From Candidatus Polarisedimenticola svalbardensis (lineage in GTDB: Bacteria; Acidobacteriota; Polarisedimenticolia; Polarisedimenticolales; Polarisedimenticolaceae): DNA of 56,765 nucleotides. Both the position numbers and the translations under genes were made by a program. Of the stretch, positions 39,294 to 49,900 are shown one piece after another. Positions within the stretch are counted from its first letter, which is position 1. Each line of letters opens with the position of its first letter. Location of the stretch: assembly GCA_014764515.1 (NCBI GenBank), contig JACXWD010000011.1:20620-77384 (forward strand), given 5' to 3'. The notes below the pieces were generated by a model. The model was not told the origin of the DNA. It did no database searches and was given only the letters and a program-made list of their open reading frames with translations.

Positions 39294-39306
39294 TCAGGTC
39301 GGGTCG

Positions 39307-39336
39307 TTGACCCGGCATTGGATCGACCGTTATCCT
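39307..39336 (+). promoter_or_regulatory. Promoter for the MFS gene, overlapping the upstream terminator
   Basis: TTGACC (39307-39312) and TATCCT (39331-39336) are 18 bases apart. The -10 overlaps the 5' arm of the M16 terminator. A transcript starting near 39343 would lack that arm. The -35 lies inside an inverted repeat, CGGGTC-GTT-GACCCG (39300-39314), which could be an operator. Confidence 0.5.
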
Positions 39337-39371
39337 CCCGGTGCCCCTCGTGGGCGCCGGGAGGATTTTTT
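39332..39371 (+). terminator. Rho-independent terminator of the M16 pair, embedding the MFS ribosome-binding site
   Basis: A stem of 15 bp (39332-39346 with 39352-39366, one G:U pair, loop CTCGT-like) is followed by six T residues ending at 39371. The 3' arm contains GGGAGG, which is the Shine-Dalgarno of the MFS gene whose ATG is the next base, 39372. Confidence 0.88.
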
Positions 39372-40580
39372 ATGCTCCGCCGGTTCGCGCTTTACGGCTT
39401 TCTCAAGAACCAGCGCTACTTCGAGCCGTTCCTGCTTCTGGTTTTTCTCGAAAAGGGCCTGGATTTCTTTCAGATCGGCCTGTTGATCGGGTTTCGGGAG
39501 CTCTGTGTCAATCTAATGGAGGTGCCCAGCGGCGCAGCTGCGGACCTGTACGGCCGGCGCCGTTCGATGCTGCTGTCTTTCAGCGCGTACATCGCCTCCT
39601 TCGTCGTATTCGCGCTGGCGGACAGCATCGCCCTGCTGTCCGCCGCCATGTTTTTGTTCGCCATCGGTGAAGCGTTCCGCACCGGAACCCACAAGGCGAT
39701 GATTCTCGACTGGCTGAACCGGGAGGGGCGCGGGGATGAGCGGACCCGGGTGTACGGCTTCACCCGCTCATGGTCCAAGATCGGCAGCGCTCTGTCGGTG
39801 CTGATCGCAGCCGGTCTGGTGTTCTGGACCGGGCGGTACTCCACCATCTTCTGGTTTTCCATCCCGCCATACGCTCTGGCTCTGGTGAACTTCCTGGGCT
39901 ACCCGGCGTGGCTTGACCGGGCCGGCGCCGGCCCGGTGACGGTTCGGAAAGCGATGGCCCATCTGGGAAAATCTGTGGCCGACGCCTTCCGCAATGCCAG
40001 GATCCGCAGGCTTGTTCTGGAGTCCAGCGCTTTCGAGGGTACGTTCAGAGCCGGCAAGGATTACCTCCAGCCGGTGCTCCAACAGGTCGCCATCGGGATC
40101 CCGTTGCTGGTTTCCCTGCCGGCGAATCGCCGCTCCGCCCTGCTCATCGGTGCGGTCTATGCGGTGTTGCACCTGCTGTCCAGCCTGTCCGCCCTCAACG
40201 CCTACCGTCTGGCCGGCGCTCGCGGTGGCGAGGACGGCGGATCCCTCCTGCTCTGGGGAATGGTCCTGGTTGTTTACCTGGTCCTGGTCCCCGCCTTTCA
40301 CATGAATATCCTCCCACTGGCAGTGGCCGGGTTCGTAGCGTTGGCGGCGGCCCAAAGCTTGTGGCGGCCGATAATTGTCAGCCGTTTCCATCGCTGTGCC
40401 CCGGCAGGCAGGGAAGCGACGATACTGTCCATCGAATCACAGTCCAATTCCGCCGCAACGATGGTTCTGGCCCCGGTGGTCGGGTTCCTGGTGGAGCGAA
40501 CCGGGTTCGCCTCCATCGGCATAACCGGTGCGGTACTGGCAGGGGTGATTCTGGCCGGTTTCTACACCAGAAGGCGCTAG
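39372..40580 (+). CDS. MFS transporter
   Basis: 402 residues. ATG 39372 is chosen over 39318 because the longer frame would span the terminator; GGGAGG lies seven bases upstream. About twelve transmembrane helices are predicted. The conserved MFS loop after TM2 is seen as GAAADLYGRRRSM, and EVPSG lies in TM2 just before it, a pattern of the tetracycline-resistance-like drug/metabolite group. Substrate cannot be told. Its expression should depend on the promoter inside the M16 terminator. Confidence 0.88.
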   Translation: MLRRFALYGFLKNQRYFEPFLLLVFLEKGLDFFQIGLLIGFRELCVNLMEVPSGAAADLYGRRRSMLLSFSAYIASFVVFALADSIALLSAAMFLFAIGEAFRTGTHKAMILDWLNREGRGDERTRVYGFTRSWSKIGSALSVLIAAGLVFWTGRYSTIFWFSIPPYALALVNFLGYPAWLDRAGAGPVTVRKAMAHLGKSVADAFRNARIRRLVLESSAFEGTFRAGKDYLQPVLQQVAIGIPLLVSLPANRRSALLIGAVYAVLHLLSSLSALNAYRLAGARGGEDGGSLLLWGMVLVVYLVLVPAFHMNILPLAVAGFVALAAAQSLWRPIIVSRFHRCAPAGREATILSIESQSNSAATMVLAPVVGFLVERTGFASIGITGAVLAGVILAGFYTRRR

Positions 40581-44730: not shown

Positions 44731-46878
44731 GTGTTGCCTCGCCTGCTGGTGATCCTGGCTTCGTGTTCGCTTGCCCTGGCGGCTGCTGCGGCAGAGACGT
44801 CGCCTGAATTTCAGATCCTGGGGGCCGACGGCCGTCCGATGGCCAACGCCCGGATCATGCTCCTGGGCAGGATCGAGCCGGTCAGCGTTGACGGTGACGG
44901 CCACTTCCGGTTGATCCCGTTTCCCGAACTTCCGGTTGAACTGCTGATCATGGACGGCGCCGGACGGCTGGCCGGTACGGTCCTGCTGGAAGCGATCGTT
45001 CCGGTGGACGGCCCGGTGGTGTTGACGCTGAACCCCGTCGGCCTGGAAGCGGTGACGGTTGTGCTGGGTTCCAGCCCGTCTACCGCCTCGTCGCCGGCCG
45101 CCGCCGCCACGATGATGACACGAGAGGAGCTGGACCGGGCCCGGCCGTCACGGCTCGTGGACACCCTTGCGGCGGTTCCCGGCGCCGAGAATTCCGGCTC
45201 CGGGCAGACGGCGGCGCCGACGATCCGGGGCCTGTCCCGTGGGAGGACCCTGGTGCTGCTGGACGGCGCCCGGGTGACCACCGAACGGCGGGCCGGGGCA
45301 TCGGCCACCTTCCTGGATCCGTTTTCCCTGGAATCCACCGAACTTGTGAGAGGACCCGGATCGGTCGCTTACGGCTCCGACGCCCTGGGCGGAATCCTGC
45401 ATGCGCGGACCGTCCGTCCGGTGCCAGGAGAGTTTGCCGGAAGGTGGGAACTGGCGGCCGGGGGAGGTGTACCCTACGGATCCGCAGCTTTCGGGGTGAA
45501 CCTGCCGGCCGGCGAACAGGGCAGCTTCCTGGTGCAGGGCCACCAACGCAGCTTTGACGATTACGAAACGCCGGACGGCACAGAGGAGAACTCTTCGGCC
45601 AGGGACCGCGGCTTCCTGGTTCGCGGCCGGATGCCGTGGTTGTCCGGCGATCTGAATCTCGGGTTCCAGTTCGACGAGGCCATAGATGTGGAACGGCCGG
45701 CCTCCAACACCGGCACCAGCCGCACCGACTACCCGCTGGAGCGGTCGGAGCGTTTGACCCTGGACTGGACCCGCACCGGCCTGTCCGGCTGGTTCAAGGA
45801 ACAGACGGTGCAGCTCTTCCTCGGTCGCTACCGTCTGGAAACCGAGCGTGAGGACGATGAACCGGGAGGAGTCGAGATCAGCGGCTCGGATGTTTCCGCC
45901 TCCGACTATTCGATCCGGGTCGCAGGGATGCGGGAGCGGGAGGGGTATCGCCTGCAAGCCGGCCTGGATCTGAACGGCCGGGCAGGCCTTGAGGCGGTCG
46001 GCTCCATCGACTCGGCTCAGAGAACCGACGCCGGGTTGTACATGGAAGGTGAGCGCTTTCTGGACGGCGGTCGCTGGACCGTCTCAGGTGGCGCACGACT
46101 CGACCAGGTGCGATCCAGCAACAGTGGCGGTAACTTCGGCGACCGCACCAGTTCCAACGGCACCGCTTCCGGATTTGCCGCCATCGGGTTGCGGCCGTGG
46201 GAGTCGGCGACCCGGTTTACCTTCCAGGTTGCCCGTGGCTTCCGGGACCCGTCCCTGTCGGACCGGTACTTCTCCGGCACAACCGCCCGGGGAAGGATCA
46301 CCGGCAACCCGGACCTGTCGCCTGAAACCTCCCTGCAGTTCGACCTGTCCGCCACGACCCGGGTGGGACGCACCACCGTTGCGGCCTACGGGTACCACTA
46401 CACCGTGTCGGATCTGATCGAGCGTTTCGAAACGGCGGAGGACGAGTTCGGATTCCGAAACCGGGACGAAGTGGTTATCCGGGGTCTCGAACTTGAGGCT
46501 GACACCGTACTGGCCGAGGGTTGGACCCTCCGGACCATCGCCGGCCGGTCGGAGGGCGAACTGGAAGACGGCTCCCGCCCCAACGACATACCGGCAGCCA
46601 CGGTAGGCGCCACGGTGCAGCACAGTGCAAGTGACCGGTTGTGGTACCGCTTCGGCGGTCGCTACGTTTTCCGTGACGAAGACGCGGGTTCCACCGAACA
46701 GCTTGTACCCGGATATGCCGTGCTGGATATGGTGGTCGGCTGGGAGGCGAAAACCGGCTGGTCGGCCCGGCTGGTCCTGAAGAACCTGGCCGACCGCAAC
46801 CACCTGGCCAGCGCCGACCGCAGGGCGCCGTCAGCGCCGGGACTGTCGGCGGCGCTGGTGGTTTCCGGGCGGTTCTGA
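44731..46878 (+). CDS. TonB-dependent outer-membrane receptor
   Basis: 715 residues, GTG start at 44731 following the aminotransferase by three bases. A signal peptide (MLPRLLVILASCSLALAAAAA) is followed by a carboxypeptidase-regulatory-like beta domain (about 24-115), a plug with MTREELDRARPSRLVDTLAAVPG, IRGLSRGRTLVLLDGARV and VRGPGSVAYGSDALGGIL, then a ~500-residue beta-barrel with alternating aromatic strands. The last residue is Phe (VVSGRF), the barrel-assembly signal. It imports a siderophore, cobalamin or glycan with TonB energy; the ligand is not predictable. An obvious TonB box is not seen. Confidence 0.93.
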   Translation: MLPRLLVILASCSLALAAAAAETSPEFQILGADGRPMANARIMLLGRIEPVSVDGDGHFRLIPFPELPVELLIMDGAGRLAGTVLLEAIVPVDGPVVLTLNPVGLEAVTVVLGSSPSTASSPAAAATMMTREELDRARPSRLVDTLAAVPGAENSGSGQTAAPTIRGLSRGRTLVLLDGARVTTERRAGASATFLDPFSLESTELVRGPGSVAYGSDALGGILHARTVRPVPGEFAGRWELAAGGGVPYGSAAFGVNLPAGEQGSFLVQGHQRSFDDYETPDGTEENSSARDRGFLVRGRMPWLSGDLNLGFQFDEAIDVERPASNTGTSRTDYPLERSERLTLDWTRTGLSGWFKEQTVQLFLGRYRLETEREDDEPGGVEISGSDVSASDYSIRVAGMREREGYRLQAGLDLNGRAGLEAVGSIDSAQRTDAGLYMEGERFLDGGRWTVSGGARLDQVRSSNSGGNFGDRTSSNGTASGFAAIGLRPWESATRFTFQVARGFRDPSLSDRYFSGTTARGRITGNPDLSPETSLQFDLSATTRVGRTTVAAYGYHYTVSDLIERFETAEDEFGFRNRDEVVIRGLELEADTVLAEGWTLRTIAGRSEGELEDGSRPNDIPAATVGATVQHSASDRLWYRFGGRYVFRDEDAGSTEQLVPGYAVLDMVVGWEAKTGWSARLVLKNLADRNHLASADRRAPSAPGLSAALVVSGRF

Positions 46879-46905
46879 GCCGGCGGTAAAATTCGACCTT
46901 CTGCC

Positions 46906-46934
46906 GGGACAATCTAACCTTATTAGCGTATATA
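46906..46934 (+). promoter_or_regulatory. Candidate promoter for the first secreted protease
   Basis: GGGACA (46906-46911) and TATATA (46929-46934) are 17 bases apart, about 47 bases upstream of the ATG at 46982. The surrounding 103-base gap is locally AT-rich compared with the rest of the window, as expected for a promoter. Confidence 0.45.
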
Positions 46935-46981
46935 AGCGGTTACGTCGGCGGCCGAGCGGGTTGTCCGGCAGGAGGACATTC

Positions 46982-49900
46982 ATGTTTTTGAAGTCGGCAT
47001 GTCGAGGCGAAGTTCGCCTTTTTGCTTGTTATATCGCCATATTTCTGGTTTTGGCCGCCGCTCCCACTATGGCCGCAGGTGGTTCGCCCGGCAGAGTCCA
47101 TCTCAAGATAGGCTCGTTCGACCCGACGGTTTCGCTCCCGGAGCTGCCGGAACGTCTTCGGCAGAACAAGGAGCCGGAGGCCGGCGTTTTCGTCGTCCAG
47201 TTCAACCAGGCGATCGATCCGGGCGTGTTGCAAAGAATCCGGACTGCCGGCGCTGAGACCTTGAAATACCTCCCGGACAATTCTTACCTGGTGCGGTTGC
47301 CTGCCGGTGCCGCCGCCGCCATCCGAGGCCTGTCCTCCGTGCGCTGGCTGGGGCCGGTACAGCCCGGCTGGAAGCTGGCCCCCGATCTGGGAACCAGGCC
47401 GTTCCAGGATCCGTCCCGGCGGATCGGTGGCCGGATGGATACGGTGGTCGATCTGTTTCCCGGGGCCGACGGAGAAGCGGTGTCCGCCCAGGTCGCCGCC
47501 ACCGGCGCCGAAATGGTGCAGATCGTCCGGTTCGGGAAGACAGTTCGTCTAAAAGTCCGAGGCGTAAGAGAACAGCTCGAACAGATTGCCGGTATTCCTG
47601 AAGTCGCCTGGATCGAGGAGGCGGCGGAAATCACATCTCGCAATGAGGAAGGCCAGTGGGTTGTGCAAACCGATGTGGTTGATTCCCGCACCATCTGGGA
47701 CCACGGCCTCCACGGTGAAGGGCAGGTTATCGGCCATATCGACGGCCGGATCAATATCAACTCCTGCTGGTTCAGTGATCCTGTGAACAACACCCCTGGC
47801 CCCGGCCATCGTAAAATCGTGGCCTACCGTTCGGCATCCGGGCTCGGCACCGATTCCCACGGCACCCACACCGCCGGCACCGTGGCCGGTAACCAGGAAC
47901 CTGTAAACGGTGTCTTCACTGCCAACGGCCATGCCTATATGGCGAAGATCTCCCACACCAACTCCAACGACGTCTCCGGATTCAACAACTCATCGTCCAA
48001 CCTGTACGCCAACCTGGAGGCGGCCCACCAGGACGGCGCCCGGGTTCATACCAATTCGTGGGGCGATGACGGCACCACCGTCTACACCACCTGGTGTGAG
48101 GATATCGACCAGTTCAGCTACGACTACGAAGACTCCCTGGTCCTGTTCGCCGAAACCAACGGAAGCGCTCTCAAGACCCCGGAAAACGCCAAGAACGTCC
48201 TGGCCGTCGGCGCCACCCAGCGAGGCGCCTCTGCGGACAACCACTGTTCCGGCGGGACCGGCCCTGCCAGTGACGGCCGCAGGAAACCGGAGATCTACGC
48301 GCCGGGTTGTTCCACCAGCTCGGCCTCCACCACCAGTTGCTCGACGACCTCGAAGACCGGCACCTCCATGGCCTGTCCGGCGGTCACCGGCGCCGGCGCC
48401 CTGGTACGGCAGTACTTCGAGGAAGGCTGGTATCCTTCCGGCGCCGCCAACGTCGCAGACACCATCACCCCTTCCGGCGCGCTGGTGAAGGCGACCCTGT
48501 TGAATTCCACGGTGGATATGACCGGGGTCACCGGCTACCCCAGTAACAGGGAAGGATGGGGGCGGGTTCTTCTTGAGAACAGCCTGTACTTCAATGGCGA
48601 CATCCGGGCCACCTCCCTCCTGGCCGATATCAGGAACCTGGATGGATTCGTCACCGGGGAGGAAGCATCGTTCCCGGTTCAGGTCACCGGCAACGGCGAA
48701 CCGCTGAAGATCACCCTGGTCTGGACCGAACCGGCTGCCGCCAACATGGCATCCCAGGCCGCCATCAACGACCTGGATCTGGAAGTCCGGGCTCCGTCCG
48801 GCGCGCTGTACCTCGGTAACGTCATGGACACCGCTTCCGGAGTTTCCGTCACCGGGGGATCGGCCGACACCATCAACAACGTGGAGATGGTCATCCTGAA
48901 CGGACCGGAAACGGGAGAATGGACGGTCACTGTTAAAGGGACCGCCGTCAACGAAGGTACCCAGGGCTTTGCACTGGTCGCTTCGGGAGAGGTGACACCG
49001 TTCGTTCCCGGGGCGCTGCGATACGTTTCCCACCTCAGCCGGGATGACGCCCCCCTAGGGAACGCCGACGGCATCGTAGACCCCGGCGAAACCATCACCC
49101 TGGAGCTGACCCTTCGCAACGCAGGATCGACGACGATCACCGGTATTTCCGGAACGATGGCAGGCGACCGGCCGGACCTGGTAAAGGTCACACGGCCTGT
49201 CGCCGCGTTCCCGGACATGGGACCGGACAGTTCCACAACATCCAGTTCGCCGCACTACCGCTACACCGTCTCGCCGGATGCACCGTGCGGCACCATCGTC
49301 CGGTTTGAAGATGTTCTGTTTTCCTCTGACGGGGAAGGATCGGTGGTATTTCGTGTCGAGGTCGGGAAAACCCGGCTGGACCAGCCCGGTTCAGGAACAC
49401 CGGTGGCGCTCCCCAAGAAGTCGGCTACGCCGGTCAGTTCAACCGTCGATATCGGAGACAGCTTCACCCTTCAGGAAGTGGATGTCGAGCTGGACATCGC
49501 CCACGGCGATGTAGGGGAGTTGATCGTACAGATAACGTCGCCTCAGGGAACCGCGGTTACGCTGCACAACCAGTCCGGAGCCGGTACGGCGGACCTGACA
49601 GCGACTTACGATGCCGGCCGACAGCCGGACGGTCCCGGGAGCCTGGCGGACTTCAACGGGCAGCAGGCCCAGGGAACCTGGACGCTTTCGGTGACCGACA
49701 ACACAGGCGGCAGGGTCAAGGGCGGCAGTTTGAACGGCTGGACCCTGATGCTGAAGGCGACAACGCCTATCAGTTGCACGCCGCTGGCTTGTGGAGATGC
49801 CGTGCCCGACACAGCCTCCGGCGCCAGGATCGACGCGGTGAACGGATCCGATCTGCAGCTCTCCTGGGATCCGATGGCCGGCGCATCCGGTTACCGTGTG

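Follow-up and report, generated by a model that had tools for sequence, protein, structure and literature searches.

How can a gene be expressed when its start codon is the base after a predicted transcription terminator and its ribosome-binding site lies within that terminator? The question is raised by an intergenic region on the forward strand of the window, by which we mean the whole 56,765-nucleotide stretch of Candidatus Polarisedimenticola svalbardensis DNA that was analyzed. Upstream is the second gene of an M16 peptidase-like pair (PF05193; 37755–39293), which forms the upstream transcription unit, and downstream is a gene for an MFS transporter (PF07690; 39372–40580). Between them, beginning about 38–39 nt past the M16 stop codon, is a hairpin whose 5′ arm, ATCCTCCCGGTGCCC (39332–39346), and 3′ arm, GGGCGCCGGGAGGAT (39352–39366), form 15 pairs (14 Watson-Crick and one G-U) around the loop CTCGT. 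A tract of six T residues follows (39366–39371), the first of which is also the closing base of the stem, and this combination of a GC-rich stem of at least 5 bp with an immediate U-rich tract is that of an intrinsic terminator. The predicted folding energy of the hairpin is −32.6 kcal/mol (z = −6.5 relative to dinucleotide shuffles). Its 3′ arm holds GGGAGG (39359–39364), the Shine-Dalgarno sequence of the following gene, 7 bases 5′ of the ATG at 39372. A −35-like TTGACC (39307–39312) is separated by 18 bases from a −10-like TATCCT (39331–39336), and the latter overlaps the 5′ arm by five bases. The original prediction was that terminator, promoter and ribosome-binding site are written in the same bases; re-reading of the sequence found its parts where they had been placed, including the 15-bp stem with six T's, the −10 box overlapping the 5′ arm, the GGGAGG in the 3′ arm, and the MFS start codon right after the T tract.

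We propose, with a probability of roughly 0.55, that this region is a compact control element in which a terminator and a translational clamp are disarmed by an internal promoter, so that expression of the downstream gene depends mainly on its own promoter. Transcripts entering from the M16 pair would fold the 15-bp hairpin and mostly terminate at the T tract, immediately upstream of the ATG, and any RNA that escaped would keep the Shine-Dalgarno sequence locked in the stem. RNA initiated at the internal promoter, with a predicted start near 39343, would lack most of the 5′ arm; neither terminator nor clamp could then form, and this RNA would be translated. Termination, the locked Shine-Dalgarno sequence and the internal start would together leave the downstream gene mainly under its own promoter.

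Folding predictions are consistent with the first half of this scheme and qualify the second. Opening the Shine-Dalgarno sequence is predicted to cost 16–18 kcal/mol in read-through RNA, where it is locked in the stem, which supports in silico the earlier claim that such RNA hides the ribosome-binding site. The predicted cost falls to 14 kcal/mol for RNA starting at 39334, to 9 kcal/mol at 39336, and to 7–8 kcal/mol from 39338 on. The switch in accessibility therefore lies between starts at 39334 and 39338, and the expected start near 39343 is past the transition. A similar drop, from 14 to 7–9 kcal/mol, is predicted for the same element in a sister genome, G001 (described below). The companion claim, that internally started RNA exposes the site, holds in a relative sense: in this RNA GGAG is predicted to pair with CUCC of MFS codons 2–3, so that the predicted gain, about 9 kcal/mol, falls short of full exposure. 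A ribosome terminating on the M16 message should not open the stem, judging from the ribosome footprint, because the stop codon is too far away.

A terminator placed right before a start codon is also the usual form of an attenuator, and the hairpin could be imagined as a signal-sensing leader that places the downstream gene under the control of a ligand or protein. We consider this very improbable. The distance between the M16 stop codon and the stem would not accommodate an aptamer, an internal promoter would start transcription inside the stem, and the folds show a very stable stem and no anti-terminator that competes with it. Neither a sensor domain with an alternative fold was found upstream of the terminator, nor did any Rfam family score at or above its cut-off for the element.

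The internal promoter itself is inferred from its sequence and from the company such sequences keep. A promoter scan returned one site in 2 kb, where 0.2 would be expected. In the window's genome, the class TTGAC-N17/18-TANNNT occurs ahead of genes that have an intergenic region to themselves eight times in the sense orientation and twice in the antisense orientation; the corresponding counts are 3 and 0 in G001 and 7 and 5 in G004, and in operonic gaps the class was never found. Six of the eight sites in the window's genome end 35–41 nt before the start codon, and both the 35 nt from TATCCT to the ATG and the 18-base spacer are typical for this genome. It could still be argued that TTGACC and TATCCT occur here by chance, and that read-through RNA is the sole source of downstream gene expression, which the hairpin would hold at a low level. 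TATCCT matches TATAAT at only four of six positions, by itself shows no strand bias upstream of genes, and could owe its conservation largely to its role in the stem. However, the −35 box and the entire spacer lie outside the stem and are conserved but for one change, and the paired motif shows a strand bias ahead of genes and does not occur in operons; we judge the absence of a promoter to be quite unlikely.

Conservation of the element was assessed against one same-genus genome, G001 (record CALZKF010000005.1, an Acidobacteria MAG). The M16 pair of G001 is orthologous (83% identical), and the same element stands behind it, so that the overlapping layout is kept at the orthologous locus. From TTGACC through GGTGCCC, a near-gapless alignment of the two sequences shows a single base difference; both boxes are unchanged, and a 13-bp GC-rich stem, GGGAGG, and the spacing to the ATG are common to both. 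The sequence 5′ of TTGACC, the loop and the T tract differ, and in G001 the tract is interrupted (TTATTTT; UUAUUUU in RNA). Between the window and G001, the hairpin arms hold no base change that would test the pairing by covariation. Other intergenic regions of this pair of genomes also hold 30-bp cores with 28–30 matches, so the conservation of the element is good, not exceptional. An operator had been suggested at an inverted repeat over the −35 box, CGGGTC-GTT-GACCCG (39300–39314). The repeat is present in the window, but in G001 it reads CTGGGC-GTT-GACCCG; with its left arm not conserved, the operator idea is without support, and we rejected it and do not consider the repeat functional.

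The ATG behind the element opens a different gene in G001. There it begins iaaA, which encodes an Asparaginase_2/isoaspartyl-peptidase with a lipoprotein-like signal, and the MFS gene lies directly downstream, with its ATG two bases past the iaaA stop codon. The G001 MFS start reads AATAGCTATGC and is without a Shine-Dalgarno sequence of its own, as would be expected of a gene translationally coupled to iaaA. No match to iaaA was found in the window's genome (estimated 100% complete), but each of the five other family members has the gene. The simpler direction of change is thus a loss in the window's lineage, and an insertion in G001 the less simple one; in more distant relatives iaaA genes are at other locations. 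The candidate deletion ends in G001 are TTTTATGC and CTATGC. The difference between TTTTATGC...CTATGCTCCG in G001 and TTTTTTATGCTCCG in the window is the one expected of a deletion between two TATGC repeats. In the window's lineage iaaA may therefore have been deleted from its own ATG to the MFS ATG, whereby the MFS gene would have taken over its promoter and ribosome-binding site. The element would then be older than the present arrangement, serving iaaA in the sister genome with MFS as the coupled second cistron. The original prediction had the element insulate the MFS gene from upstream read-through; insulation has in silico support, but because the element serves iaaA in G001, the insulated gene is not specifically MFS.

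The start codon of the MFS gene is backed by N-terminal conservation, with M1, L2, R4 and F5 invariant in eight homologues from several phyla. An in-frame TTG at 39318 was rejected as a start, having no Shine-Dalgarno sequence upstream and homologues that start at the ATG; this frame is retained in G001 too, but before a different protein. Close homologues (about 45–57%) occur in many phyla, among them Cloacimonetes, Gemmatimonadetes, Poribacteria, Dehalococcoidia and Planctomycetota, and the MFS family is not found in other genera of the family to which the window's genome belongs. This scattered distribution suggests acquisition by horizontal transfer. Among the MFS homologues elsewhere, none of the 31 with a recognizable Shine-Dalgarno sequence carries such a hairpin, and only in G001 is iaaA next to the MFS gene.

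The layout is rare. In a 626-kb sample of the window's genome, comprising 135 same-strand genes with an upstream gap of at least 40, a Shine-Dalgarno sequence within the 3′ arm of a stem of at least 8 bp with a T-rich tail was found once (shuffles, 0.2). When the T tail was ignored, perfect 8-bp hairpins holding the Shine-Dalgarno sequence were no commoner in the sampled stretches than in shuffles. The pattern CCTCC/GGAGG/TTTTATG has one match in the whole 3.7-Mb genome and one in G001, at the same place, and a DNA search for the element across the family returned G001 as the only true match.

These observations bear on whether the clamp is a selected feature. Promoter and terminator may both be real, with termination alone sufficient and the hiding of the Shine-Dalgarno sequence of no selected consequence; the sequence would then owe its position in the stem simply to the fact that a T-rich 3′ arm bearing GGAGG also serves well as a ribosome-binding site. 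We regard this economical account as possible but doubtful. Behind the M16 pair of G003 (59% identical) stands an ordinary terminator, clear of any start codon, and then come other genes, so termination alone can be the feature that is kept. That terminator, GGCCGGGCCCTTCGGGGTCCGGCCTTTTCTT (L026, 2955–2995), has no gene start at it and belongs to a different genus. No general compensatory pairing was seen in orthologous upstream regions of G000 and G001, and layouts of this kind are no commoner than in shuffles. Against this account, the stem and GGGAGG of G001 are intact although its T tract is interrupted, and in G002 and G005, where iaaA has its own intergenic region, the Shine-Dalgarno sequence folds with an upstream arm in the absence of a T tract. 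Six loci were scored in the survey of iaaA upstream regions. The two in question (L232, 1399–1503, in G002; L128, 1333–1437, in G005) are from two other genera and have unrelated upstream sequences; both follow a sigma-factor-like gene, and in both the arm that pairs with the Shine-Dalgarno sequence is upstream of a −10-like box. Their folds scored z = −5.7 (G002) and z = −2.5 (G005) at the same window length.

Control by a terminator and clamp that an internal promoter disarms has close relatives among described systems. Sequestration of the ribosome-binding site in read-through RNA is described for T4 e, soc, I-TevI, I-TevII and segB and for Aeh1 mobE (PMC2988022). In these T4 late genes and homing endonucleases, RNA from upstream promoters has its Shine-Dalgarno sequence buried in a stable stem, and RNA from a promoter placed in the stem region lacks the 5′ arm (PMC2988022); the same is predicted for the window element. 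In contrast to them, the window stem runs into a T tract and is expected to act as a terminator, its putative promoter looks housekeeping and not late-phage, and its genes are ordinary chromosomal genes. The transposase genes of IS10/Tn10 and IS200 are protected from external transcription (Davis 1985, Beuzon 1999, as cited in PMC2965389), and the likeness is one of purpose, in that incoming transcription yields no protein; unlike these, the window element has no mobile element in the flanking sequence examined. Finally, 5′ terminators may encompass a ribosome-binding site, as in the rimP leader, where one hairpin can likewise act as terminator and overlap the ribosome-binding site (PMC2965389). 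The rimP leader, however, is transcribed from an upstream promoter, whereas the putative promoter of the window element is inside the hairpin and would bypass it. A promoter within a stem that hides the ribosome-binding site is an established principle, and the terminator is the addition here; a partial literature search with few phrasings returned no paper in which a single stem combines all three functions of terminator, promoter and ribosome-binding site. We consider the element real but small, of modest interest, its predicted function following known principles. It would be a two-level insulator, about 65 bases from promoter to start codon, that terminates incoming RNA, silences the escapees, and is disarmed by its own promoter. 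The sister genome suggests that an element of this kind can come to serve another gene when a deletion runs from start codon to start codon.

Pairing between Shine-Dalgarno and promoter regions may extend beyond this locus. In three genomes this complementarity is slightly above shuffled or reversed controls: the mean percentile in the window's genome is 0.407 (nominal p = 3e-5, one of several statistics), and nominal p is 0.02 in G001 and 0.008 in G004 (several statistics tried). The gain is small, about 0.4–0.9 kcal/mol, though single cases stand out, among them the window gene at 46982 (described below) and iaaA of G002 and G005. Operonic genes showed no excess in the same −100 to −32 window. 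Divergent gene pairs of the window's genome show the excess as well, and there read-through is not an obvious reason for it. A comparison of own with cross pairing in 22 orthologous upstream regions whose Shine-Dalgarno regions differ gave no support (p = 0.24), and we treat a genome-wide habit as an unproven lead. That some promoters across the family carry, upstream of the transcript start, arms complementary to the Shine-Dalgarno sequence of their own gene seems to us unlikely. If it were so, only RNA from the proper promoter would be translated, and among such cases the window element would be the most pronounced, one that is fused to a terminator; the weak genome-wide tendency, if real, would offer a general means of tying translation to the correct promoter.

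Two further loci have related structures. In the window, a subtilase-like gene that starts at 46982 and follows a TonB-receptor-like gene has a GGAGG that takes part in an imperfect 16-bp pairing (in the region 46870–47000) of the arms CTTCTGCCGGGACAATC and GGTTGTCCGGCAGGAGG, with a −10-like TATATA between them; no matching arm was found in the aligned part of a homologous G001 locus. In an intergenic region of G003 without a start codon (L182, 1505–1600), two near-identical tandem hairpins, CCTCCCGGCGCC...ACACCGGGAGGTT, about 60 bp apart, resemble the window stem.
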